A stretch of DNA of 41,431 nt from Thermoproteota archaeon (GCA_030549835.1 JAUQQR010000009.1:1-41431), one strand, 5' to 3'. Shown: positions 27,938-31,290, counted from the first letter of the stretch. Notes: generated from the sequence alone by a model not told the origin. Numbers and translations: made by a program.

Positions 27938-28022
27938 TTAACCACCCGGTAAACCGATCAAAACCAAAACTTATATAGACTATAAAATCTTATAATTAAA
28001 CAAGTAAGAGAGTAAGGATATA

Positions 28023-28107
28023 GGGTTCAGCTCTGATATGGTTTCATTGCCTCATCTCTATCCCCCACATTGATCTCGGGCTTGCATCATCCTTAGGGGG
28101 CTTTCAG
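28023..28107 (-). ncRNA. Structured RNA element, copy 1 of a two-copy family
   Basis: The minus strand from 28107 to 28023 is about 80 percent identical by eye to 31089-31174 (plus). Identical blocks include CTGAAAG at the 5' end, GTGCAAGCCC-like ATGCAAGCCC, GGGGGA, GATGAG and TATCAGAGCTGAACCC at the 3' end. CCCCC pairs with GGGGG around an inner GAT/ATC stem. A TTTATA box A (28127-28134, minus) would start transcription at about 28105. No reading frame crosses it. The layout recalls the omega RNAs at TnpB 3' ends, but no TnpB is present. Nothing else was found in 27938-28223 apart from a box A for the next gene. Confidence 0.6.
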
Positions 28108-28223
28108 AACACTAGGAGAATGAATCTATAAAGGTCTCCTATAGGAATTACCCAGGGGAAGGCCTAAATAGGAGTGAGATTTTATCTTTGAATCCAGTAA
28201 TTAAATATGGGGTTTAAAGTTCT

Positions 28224-28712
28224 ATGGTTAAAGCTATAGTTAAGATTAGTGATGAAGGTATAGTTTTAGATAAGTGTATTGATAGCGAGTTTTGTTCTAA
28301 TCTAGGTAGGCTAGGATATATTAGAGATAATATTATCGAACCACTTGAAGTAGCTTACCAGGCATCTCTAGGTACTATAGAGTTTAATGGTTTAAGTGGG
28401 TGGGAGGCTTCACTACAAATCCTTAGTATGCTTAGAATAAGATTAAGCCTATTTTTAGTATATCATGATTTGAGAACTAAGGGTAAGAGGGTTAAGGCTA
28501 GAGTTAAAGATAATACGTTACTAATACCCTTAAGTCCCGGTAAAGTCTTAGAAATACTAGTCTTAGAAGAAGGTGTACATATGACTTTAGAAGGGTTAGC
28601 AGAGTGGAGTAGAGGTGTTCAAGCACTAAATCATATACCTATAATTGCTATAGTTGATAAAACTGGAGTAATAACATACTATGAAGCTAGAACTATGACA
28701 CAACTAATATAA
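28224..28712 (+). CDS. tRNA-splicing endonuclease, structural beta-like subunit
   Basis: Crenarchaeal tRNA-intron endonuclease is an (alpha beta)2 complex in which the beta subunit lacks the catalytic residues. The 162-residue protein shows the C-terminal fold of the family: FLVYHDLRTKGKRVKARVKD, a central strand LLIPLSPGKVLEILVLEEG, and PIIAIVDKTGVITYYEART. The catalytic His and final Lys of active subunits are not seen. ATG 28224 has GGGGTTT and a TTAAATATG box A upstream. The catalytic subunit is not in this window. Confidence 0.72.
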   Translation: MVKAIVKISDEGIVLDKCIDSEFCSNLGRLGYIRDNIIEPLEVAYQASLGTIEFNGLSGWEASLQILSMLRIRLSLFLVYHDLRTKGKRVKARVKDNTLLIPLSPGKVLEILVLEEGVHMTLEGLAEWSRGVQALNHIPIIAIVDKTGVITYYEARTMTQLI

Positions 28713-28720
28713 AAGTAATC

Positions 28721-29653
28721 TCATAATGGTACCATTACAACCATTCCATCCATAAGGTATCTATAAAGCTTTCTAACATTAGATTCCTTAATTTTAACCC
28801 TCTCTGCTACTGTAGATTGACTAATGTTCTCGTAGCCGTGGAGTCTAGCTACTAAGTAGACTATAGCTGCTGCTACTGTTTCAGGCTTCTTACCATATAG
28901 TGTCTTACCAGATTTTAGAGCCACCCTTAAGAACTCTAGTGCATCTTTTTTAACACTATCTTCTAACTTGAGATCACTTACCAATCTATTAATGTAAGTC
29001 TCAACTCTATCTACTAATCTCCTACTCCCTCCCTCAGTATATATGTGTCTATTAATTTTACTGAATACTCCTTTACTATAGAGCTTATTGGTAGCGTCCC
29101 ACACACATTCCTGGTCTACATCTAGTAATTCTAGAACTTCATTCTTAGTTATACATAGATTATATTTCTCAATTATCTTTAATATCACAGCAGCTACTAT
29201 ACACCTCTGTTCTTTAACTCCCGATATCTTCTCCTTATCTAGGTAACTATTTATTATATAGCCAATATCCTCTTTCGCGGTTTTAGATAGGGCTAGTATA
29301 CTAGCTATCTCATTAGCCTTTTTAAGTATTGAAACCTTATATATATCCTTCTTAGCTACACGTGCTTCCTTAATTCTCTTAGCTAATATACCCGATGTCC
29401 TCTTCAGTGGATTACTAGGCTTCTGTGGTCTAAGTGTAACACCTATCCCTAAATCGTGTTGAGTAAATGTTATGGGGTCTCCTACTCTAGAGACACTTCT
29501 ACCATCATCTCTAAACATCCTCTCAGGCTCGTCAGATATAATGTTAACGTCTAGAACCTCACCTGTACTACTACAGACTACATACCCCTCCTGTGTAATA
29601 ACAACTTCACCAGGGCATCTCTCTATACTATCATCTAATCCCCCAAGACTCAT
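28721..29653 (-). CDS. tfb: Transcription initiation factor B (TFB), divergent paralogue
   Basis: TFB bridges TBP-DNA and RNA polymerase. Starting at ATG 29653 the protein has 310 residues: a reduced zinc ribbon with two cysteines (CPGEVV...VVCSSTGEVLD, as in other crenarchaeal TFBs), a B-reader region DEPERMFRDDGRSVSRVGD, and two cyclin folds, the second with VAAAIVYLVARLHGYENISQ and a recognition helix. The B-reader and first cyclin fold differ clearly from canonical crenarchaeal TFB. The start is fixed by GGGGGAGGT five bases upstream; the frame extends to 29719, but that would overlap gar1 heavily. Only one base separates it from the gar1 stop, indicating coupled translation. Confidence 0.9.
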   Translation of the reverse strand: MSLGGLDDSIERCPGEVVITQEGYVVCSSTGEVLDVNIISDEPERMFRDDGRSVSRVGDPITFTQHDLGIGVTLRPQKPSNPLKRTSGILAKRIKEARVAKKDIYKVSILKKANEIASILALSKTAKEDIGYIINSYLDKEKISGVKEQRCIVAAVILKIIEKYNLCITKNEVLELLDVDQECVWDATNKLYSKGVFSKINRHIYTEGGSRRLVDRVETYINRLVSDLKLEDSVKKDALEFLRVALKSGKTLYGKKPETVAAAIVYLVARLHGYENISQSTVAERVKIKESNVRKLYRYLMDGMVVMVPL

Positions 29654-29654
29654 A

Positions 29655-29951
29655 CTACCTCCCCCTCGCTTTCCTAGGAGGCTTCCAAGGTTCATAGTAT
29701 AGGTCGCTAGAGCTCTCAATAGCTTGTACTAAATCTTTATCTTTAATCTTAACAACCGCGTAAGGCTTCTTCACATTACCAATAATATCTACTACTAAGC
29801 CAGCCTCTCTAAACTTCCCATATTCATCTTTAAAGTATACTTTAGAACCTATAGGTATAGGCTTCTCTCTAGCCATAGATATCACGATATAATTCATTGG
29901 AGTTATTGATTTAATAGAGCCGAGATATTTAATATTCTCAATTCTACCCAT
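29655..29951 (-). CDS. gar1: H/ACA RNP protein Gar1
   Basis: Gar1 is a core protein of H/ACA RNPs, which guide pseudouridylation of rRNA. The 98-residue protein has the small beta-barrel with PIPIGSKVYFKDEYGKFREA, GLVVDIIGNVKKPYAVVKI and a basic KPPRKARGR tail. ATG at 29951. It forms a two-gene unit with tfb, a pairing also found in other crenarchaea. Confidence 0.92.
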   Translation of the reverse strand: MGRIENIKYLGSIKSITPMNYIVISMAREKPIPIGSKVYFKDEYGKFREAGLVVDIIGNVKKPYAVVKIKDKDLVQAIESSSDLYYEPWKPPRKARGR

Positions 29952-30061
29952 CCCACTCGCCTCCCTCTAGCTTAACCCCTCACATTTTTAGCGAGCTATC
30001 AAGTATATAAATAGTTATGCTTAAGTTAAAGTCCCTAAAAATTTAAGTCGTAATGGTGCGG

Positions 30062-31000
30062 CTACCGCGTATATATGTTAGTATTATTTTTAACTTCTAC
30101 TCTCATCTTATCAAAGCTATTATTATTACAGGAGCTACACTTATCTGGGTGTAGTGAGAGTCCCCCGCAAACACTACAGGTATACCTTAGTTTTCTTAAT
30201 AAAGCTCCCCTTAGGAAGTCTATAGTTTTAACTGAGCTAAACTCTAATTCAGGGCCCTTAGGGCTTACAGAGTAGAATATTCTAGAAGCTTTAATTTTCT
30301 CATAGCTATCATCTAGGCAATAACCATTTAATCCAACTAGGAAAGCATAAGATATTATAGCCTCCGCCTCTATAGTTGATAGAGCATTAATAACGTTAAC
30401 ACTGTCTAATGTAAGCTTATCAACTACATCTCCTAGTAACTCTTCAGATCCAGATAGTAGAGCTTCTAGACCTAATATAGTGTAGTCTGTAATTGTTATA
30501 GGTAGTAGGATAGTATCATAGCCTAATATCTTAGCTAATATTATACTCCAAACTCTATCATACCTTAAAGTATCAACTATATTACTAAACCTATACCTAG
30601 GGCTAACATCAACAGATATAATACTAGTACTCCTAGCCAGAGTATCTATAGAGTATTGATCTAAGTAGACGCTACTAGGAATAGCAACTCTAATCTCCGA
30701 CTCATAACCCCTCTTAATAAAAGATGTTATATATGCTAAACCAAGTGATGCCATAGTATTATAACATGTTACAGGTACCAAGACTCTACCTCTAGGCTTA
30801 AGAGCTGCAAATTTGCCTAAATGCCTCCTAATACTCCTCTCTAGCATCCTCCCCAAACAAGAAATACATAGATAGTGACCACTAGAAGACCTATAATAGA
30901 CTGCCCTACCCTCACATAGACTACACGAAACTCCCAAATTACCCCCTAATGTTACAAAGAAAAACATAGCTTTAAAGGTAAGATTATAATTAATTAACAA
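30062..31000 (-). CDS. Degenerate Ncs6/TtcA-like (tRNA thiolation) protein lacking the PP-loop
   Basis: The ends match the Ncs6/TtcA group: an N-terminal zinc knuckle CSLCEGRAVYYRSSSGHYLC with ISCLGRMLERSIRRHL after it, and a C-terminal CSVCGG / CSSCNN pair. Ncs6 proteins adenylate tRNA uridine for thiolation by means of a SGGKDS PP-loop. Here the corresponding place reads PVTCYNTMASLGLAYI, so the ATP-pyrophosphatase motif is gone, and the middle is strongly diverged. The frame is intact over about 290 residues, so the gene is under selection or recently decayed. Start uncertain: ATG 30964 or TTG 30937 (just after GGGGGT) are better than 31000. Function unknown. Confidence 0.75.
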   Translation of the reverse strand: MLINYNLTFKAMFFFVTLGGNLGVSCSLCEGRAVYYRSSSGHYLCISCLGRMLERSIRRHLGKFAALKPRGRVLVPVTCYNTMASLGLAYITSFIKRGYESEIRVAIPSSVYLDQYSIDTLARSTSIISVDVSPRYRFSNIVDTLRYDRVWSIILAKILGYDTILLPITITDYTILGLEALLSGSEELLGDVVDKLTLDSVNVINALSTIEAEAIISYAFLVGLNGYCLDDSYEKIKASRIFYSVSPKGPELEFSSVKTIDFLRGALLRKLRYTCSVCGGLSLHPDKCSSCNNNSFDKMRVEVKNNTNIYTR

Positions 31001-31042
31001 TCAATATAGGATTATAGCTAAAATCCTCTAAAACATCGTGTA

Positions 31043-31053
31043 AGTTAAATATA
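31043..31053 (+). promoter_or_regulatory. Box A of RNA element copy 2
   Basis: GTTAAATATA lies about 26 bases before the predicted RNA 5' end near 31075. It does not serve any reading frame: the flanking genes point away or end elsewhere. Confidence 0.5.
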
Positions 31054-31074
31054 GGATAAGTTAAGATGTAGAGT

Positions 31075-31290
31075 GCCCGGAGATCGTCCTGAAAGTCTCT
31101 AACGGTGGTGCAAGCCCAAGACCAATATGGGGGAACAATGGATGAGACAGTGAACTTATATCAGAGCTGAACCCCTAATAAATGTTAATGCTCTAAGAGA
31201 CCCAGAGCTTAGCCCTTACATCTTCCTAGGACTTGGAATTTATTGGGGCTCTTGTAGGAGATCTATGAGGGAGTAGAAGTCTCTGGGTAT
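31075..31290 (+). ncRNA. Structured RNA element, copy 2, with extended 3' fold
   Basis: The core 31089-31174 is homologous to 28107-28023 (minus). Relative to copy 1, the inner stem changes from GAT/ATC to GGT/ACC, a compensatory change, and CCCCC/GGGGG changes to a wobble-compatible TCTCT/GGGGG. After the shared CTGAACCC end the sequences diverge. Further downstream, ACCCAGAG (about 31200) can pair with CTCTGGGT (about 31282), and AGCCC with GGGCT inside it, so this copy may continue to about 31290 or contain a second RNA. The gap 31001-31318 holds no credible protein gene. Confidence 0.55.

Follow-up and report, generated by a model that had tools for sequence, protein, structure and literature searches.

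Two structured repeats in a Thermoproteota genome are probably decayed right ends of short, non-autonomous TnpB-derived transposons

The window, i.e. the whole 41,431-nt stretch of Thermoproteota DNA analysed here, carries two related repeats (W+ on the plus strand and W- on the minus strand) which very probably represent the eroded right ends of short non-autonomous transposons that arose from an archaeal element of TnpB, a CRISPR-like nuclease whose guide RNA the element also carries. They most likely represent fossils and not an RNA system of a new kind, and the window loci are in themselves ordinary. What is new is an RNA family absent from Rfam, which has expanded in Thermoproteota in the form of solo elements, also in genomes lacking an intact cognate TnpB; omegaRNAs, PATE-type derivatives which retain the tnpB tail and right end (PMC3119063, PMC7290912) and reRNAs with no TnpB next to them (PMC11061315) are already known.

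The original prediction described an oppositely oriented pair about 80 percent identical, and this held, as 31089–31174(+) and 28107–28023(-) are 78% alike over ~89 nt (E = 9e-13). Both end in the common tract TATCAGAGCTGAACCC, with homology stopping directly after it, and the compensatory change claimed for the inner stem S2 is genuine and two-sided (GGT/ACC in W+, GAT/ATC in W-). A covariance model, R2, made without W+ and W-, recovered W+ at 31060–31174(+) with 85.9 bits (E = 5.3e-19) and W- at 28131–28023(-) with 68.5 bits (E = 8.7e-15), and no further match below E = 0.27 was present in the window. These R2 matches are driven mainly by sequence, and pair counts were taken from an independent MAFFT alignment (A3). 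The extent needed correction: the RNA begins at ~31060 in W+, 29 nt before 31089, and W- has lost its 5′ part. The features are as follows.

31060–31174, plus strand: W+, predicted omegaRNA scaffold and right end of a TnpB element, matching the covariance model over its full length.
31071–31089, plus strand: W+ stem-loop S0, 31071–31075 pairing with 31085–31089, four of five pairs kept.
31096–31133, plus strand: W+ stem S1, 31096–31100 pairing with 31129–31133, five of five pairs kept.
31104–31123, plus strand: W+ inner stem S2, GGT (31104–31106) pairing with ACC (31121–31123).
31167–31175, plus strand: right boundary of W+, CTGAACCC, followed by an invariant C, the divergence point of all copies.
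31176–31195, plus strand: would-be W+ guide, flanking DNA.
28023–28107, minus strand: W-, predicted omegaRNA truncated at its 5′ end, with S1, S2 and the 3′ boundary present, S0 and its loop gone.
28062–28100, minus strand: W- stem S1, 28100–28096 pairing with 28066–28062, every pair kept.
28072–28091, minus strand: W- inner stem S2, GAT (28091–28089) pairing with ATC (28074–28072).
28003–28022, minus strand: would-be W- guide, flanking DNA.

The neighbours of the repeats are a tRNA-intron-endonuclease-like ORF (28224–28712, plus strand), a TFIIB-repeat ORF (28721–29719, minus strand) and a Gar1-like protein (29655–29951, minus strand). A scan of genome contigs with the tRNA-endonuclease-like ORF as query gave no match.

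The pair had been taken for a two-copy family, which proved far too small: at least 24 copies occur in the window's own genome (1.42 Mb, 68 contigs), and the covariance-model search which the original prediction proposed detected the family in 31 of 147 related genomes. The relatives include Desulfurococcaceae, Ignisphaera, Nezhaarchaeota, Verstraetearchaeota and Bathyarchaeota bins. One single-contig genome (G074) holds at least 24 RNA copies with cognate tnpB as fragments only, some of these copies being tnpB remnants which carry stop codons. In another genome (G094), 16 RNA copies were observed and an intact cognate tnpB was not found. No Rfam model, RAGATH-18 included, matched the family at gathering or permissive thresholds, and the window region gave no match at E ≤ 5.

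In the relatives, the RNA is linked to tnpB. Intact tnpB genes with the RNA at their 3′ end were found in seven genomes (G052, G127, G107, G118, G130, G078 and G032), with a 428-codon open frame in G052; these genes encode a RuvC region and a zinc domain. The intact autonomous elements measure ~1.45–1.51 kb and are ordered as left end, small opposite-strand ORF, tnpB and right end, the last ~120 nt of which are the scaffold. The RNA overlaps the conserved C-terminal codons of tnpB in these autonomous copies and ends at the right boundary CTGAACCC, followed by C and then by unrelated flank. TnpB itself matches the Pfam Cas12f1-like zinc domain and solved Cas12f and TnpB chains, and scores 99 bits against the NCBIfam guided-TnpB model, one bit short of the cut-off of 100. 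The small ORF of ~47 aa between the left end and tnpB (MARAEIVRCSVIKYRRGDHVLYPLGRDKEKIKHLHGKEVYTLIIAEE and relatives) is conserved in autonomous elements of G127, G078, G032, G118 and G107 (L162–L164, L182, L192, L195 and L196), with no match in Pfam or NCBIfam.

Since the RNA lies at the tnpB 3′ end, stops at the element boundary and is followed by variable flank, we take it, on sequence grounds, to be the right-end (omega) RNA of a Thermoproteota TnpB family unmatched in Rfam, which agrees with the TnpB-type omegaRNA originally suggested. It is hardly credible that the repeats are instead independent small-RNA genes with no relation to transposons (such as a C/D guide RNA, a riboswitch or a 6S-like RNA). 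They are indeed structured, covarying and intergenic as such genes would be, but all copies share one transposon boundary, the location at the tnpB 3′ end in relatives contradicts this reading, and it finds no support in the empty Rfam search of the window region.

The window was correctly said to contain no tnpB. Across the genome, in a 96%-complete assembly, the only cognate tnpB is a decayed remnant on contig C41 which terminates in the same RNA sequence, other tnpB matches not belonging to this family. The draft genome has 68 contigs, and the ~4% not covered by it might include an intact TnpB, although the single-contig G074 likewise has nothing more than cognate tnpB fragments. A cognate TnpB was not found on viral contigs either.

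Covariation was assessed in a sequence-only alignment of 64 copies, with 13 scored pairs in stems S0, S1 and S2. Cells of the three stems were paired in 82.8% of cases vs 69.5% after shuffling, and two-sided changes were detected in 12 of the 13 pairs. The covariation score was 0.367 vs 0.179 for shuffled alignments, with none of 500 shuffles reaching the observed value and slid versions of the stems giving at most 0.191. Single-sequence folding of W+ and W- was no better than that of shuffles, therefore the structure rests on covariation. The inner stem S2 occurs in the registers CCCG/CGGG and GGT/ACC with pairing incomplete in 19 of the 64 copies, and in copies other than W+ it was also seen as CCCG/CGGG or GAT/ATC. 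The S0 loop reads GGGGT in 42 of 64 copies and could pair with the terminal ACCCC as a candidate pseudoknot, both sides of which hardly vary and give no covariation readout; in W+ the loop is GGAGAT, a degenerate counterpart.

The overlap with tnpB raises the question of whether the repeats are degenerate coding tails only, devoid of RNA function, and the original prediction had named homologues which all prove to be coding tails of a transposase as an outcome which would count against it. Such tails do exist, as the last tnpB codons are overlapped by the RNA in autonomous copies and as stop-containing tnpB remnants occur among the G074 copies. They leave unexplained, however, the dozens of solo copies without a tnpB gene and the stem changes, which are compensatory even where amino acids change. 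Indeed, the S2 swap from CCCG/CGGG to GGT/ACC in full elements turns the TnpB tail PKPDENPSG into PKGDANPRP yet keeps the pairing, which argues that RNA pairing may outrank the protein tail. We therefore consider coding tails without RNA function very improbable.

Short solo elements of 80–312 nt make up most copies in the window's own genome, as well as many of those in G127, G078 and G032. Their layout is a left end (of the CTGTTT..GTTTTTCAT type) followed by the omegaRNA right end, with a TATA-like box in many, and many also keep the first ~20 tnpB codons. Left and right ends are common to solo and full elements, and all 24 related elements with a script-located left end show NGCC on the left flank and CCC/C (the slash marking the junction) on the right. 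For one G032 solo, the corresponding intergenic position in two sister species lacks the element; the flanks there have diverged too far for an empty site to be defined to the exact nucleotide. Like PATEs (PMC3119063, PMC7290912), the solos are short, non-autonomous, core-deleted TnpB elements which have no transposase gene, carry TnpB-element ends, retain the right-end RNA and show no terminal inverted repeats. A comparable PATE-like element in Halanaerobium consists of a 28 nt left end, the last 58 nt of tnpB and the whole right end (PMC7290912). PATEs derive from IS605-type elements, whereas an IS607-type origin is likely here and the first tnpB codons are kept in many copies.

Two further features of the short elements were observed. 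The first ~20 tnpB codons fold into a hairpin (GAGAGCC..GGCTCTC), present in tnpB of L162–L164, L182 and L194–L196 and fused to the omegaRNA in solos L166–L175 and L183–L191 of several genomes; it is perhaps a mere deletion hot spot or perhaps a functional leader. An 80-nt miniature in the window's own genome (L043, C10:31383–31803 region) retains just the left end plus the final ~16 nt of the right end; should it have moved once the deletion had occurred, mobility would not require the omegaRNA.

The type of the parent element was approached through the C41 remnant, which also includes the N-terminal part of a serine recombinase of IS607 type (HTH_17/MerR plus IYARVS). The intact relatives inspected have tnpB without tnpA, and their TnpB scores about equally against IS200 and IS607 models, far below cut-off in both cases. 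A full IS607 element was not found in the relatives, where the tnpA fragment has homologues but a link to this tnpB family was not found. The parent TnpB element was probably of IS607 type, as one decayed copy (C41) and the C-C junction pattern suggest. Elsewhere in the same genome, an apparently intact IS607-type TnpA with a 224-aa open frame was observed (G000:C58:67222–67425, minus strand), which might supply transposase in trans.

Both window copies are eroded, with scores below nearly all other family copies. W+ is 78.4% identical to the consensus of the family in its own genome and keeps 12 of the 13 scored pairs, but its left end cannot be recognised. Its ancestral TATA is altered, reading ATCCTATAAA in the closest relative copy and ATCCTCTAAA in W+. 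Everything 5′ of 28107 is lost in W-, including the left end, the S0 stem-loop and its pseudoknot strand, and identity to the family consensus is 35% over the first 38 columns vs 84% over the remainder. The claim that each repeat is promoter-driven, behind its own box A, found no support: TTTATA occurs no more often in the window than expected (65 observed vs 76 expected), hence the box of W- is no evidence for a promoter, and it sits in sequence without homology to other copies.

The would-be guides of W+ and W- were likewise searched for targets, as had been proposed, and gave only self-matches below three mismatches in their own genome and no target in an exact search of IMG/VR. The covariance model returned no match in five same-genus genomes, a weak negative since the W+ synteny is not kept there, the flanking gene alone being present. 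The eroded window copies, targetless guides and lack of same-genus copies fit decay after nuclease loss; stem retention in W+ could also be explained by weak selection. Of the two labels first attached to the repeats, "orphan" applies in their own genome, where the cognate tnpB has decayed, and "domesticated" finds no support, as the copies are eroded, the same-genus search was empty, no guide targets were found and the cognate nuclease gene was seen in decayed form only.

A different view of the solos is that they are working trans-acting omegaRNA genes with their own TATA box, served by the TnpB of another element (or a nuclease-dead TnpB) and used for maintaining the element or for targeting genes. 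A TATA-like box and most or all of the S0/S1 pairs are retained in intact solos of G127, G078 and G032, whose RNAs share 80–96% identity with the omegaRNA found with the intact tnpB of their genome; this favours the view, as do the pairs preserved in W+. However, the omegaRNA part of solo families shows no clearly higher conservation than the remaining element sequence, the window copies have no left ends and no targets, W- lacks the 5′ stem-loop, and an intact cognate TnpB was not found in their own genome, hence we judge it improbable. A related and more tentative proposal, itself rather unlikely, is that in genomes with intact TnpB the solos are selfish guide-RNA genes (promoter, leader hairpin made of the tnpB start, and omegaRNA) that protect themselves and spread in trans, of which the window copies are late relics.

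The preferred reading remains that of decayed transposon ends. The short elements would have been derived from an archaeal TnpB element by internal deletion. For the steps which follow, we infer transcription, processing, guide use and mobilisation in trans from characterised TnpBs (PMC10711439, PMC11061315, PMC10640517). Read-through past CTGAACCC(C) would add flanking DNA as guide, and TnpB with its RNA would cut the empty donor site, beside the left-flank motif, after excision; repair of the cut site would then restore the element, favouring its re-copying. Solos without the protein, which keep both ends, the TATA box and the omegaRNA, could be both moved and maintained in trans where the genome has a TnpB. 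With the cognate TnpB dead in the window's own genome, the copies would be drifting, both window copies included.

The family is comparable to known TnpB right-end RNAs (omegaRNA or reRNA), which correspond to sotRNA in haloarchaea (Rfam RF02656/RF02657, PMC12558985). It shares with these the location at the tnpB 3′ end, the overlap with the coding tail, a scaffold ending at the element boundary, a variable flank, several stem-loops and a candidate pseudoknot with the 3′ end. It is unlike known omegaRNAs in that no Rfam model matches it, and its predicted flank motif is NGCC, whereas Sulfolobus elements have TTTAA/TTTAT (PMC10640517). Similarities to the IS607 TnpB/RAGATH-18 RNA (PMC11061315) and to the ISXfa1 reRNA, for which a loop/3′-end pseudoknot is reported (PMC10711439), include a fixed base after the boundary, stem-loops and a pseudoknot (a candidate here). 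RAGATH-18 reRNA is reported to be independent of the tnpB coding end, whereas the present RNA overlaps that end. Among 16,029 RAGATH-18 RNAs, 10,258 adjoin a TnpB and 36% are without an adjacent one (PMC11061315).

Our analysis adds an unregistered omegaRNA family of hot-spring Thermoproteota. A usable covariance model now exists for it, and several relatives have intact TnpB partners, which are presumably thermostable. It also provides a natural set of genomes without an intact cognate TnpB and with at least 24 leftover guide-RNA copies, which allow testing of the exploitation of TnpB in trans and of the rate of omegaRNA decay after nuclease loss. If the tentative proposal of selfish guide-RNA genes is true, the solos would represent a long-lived lineage in hot-spring Thermoproteota using TnpB made elsewhere.
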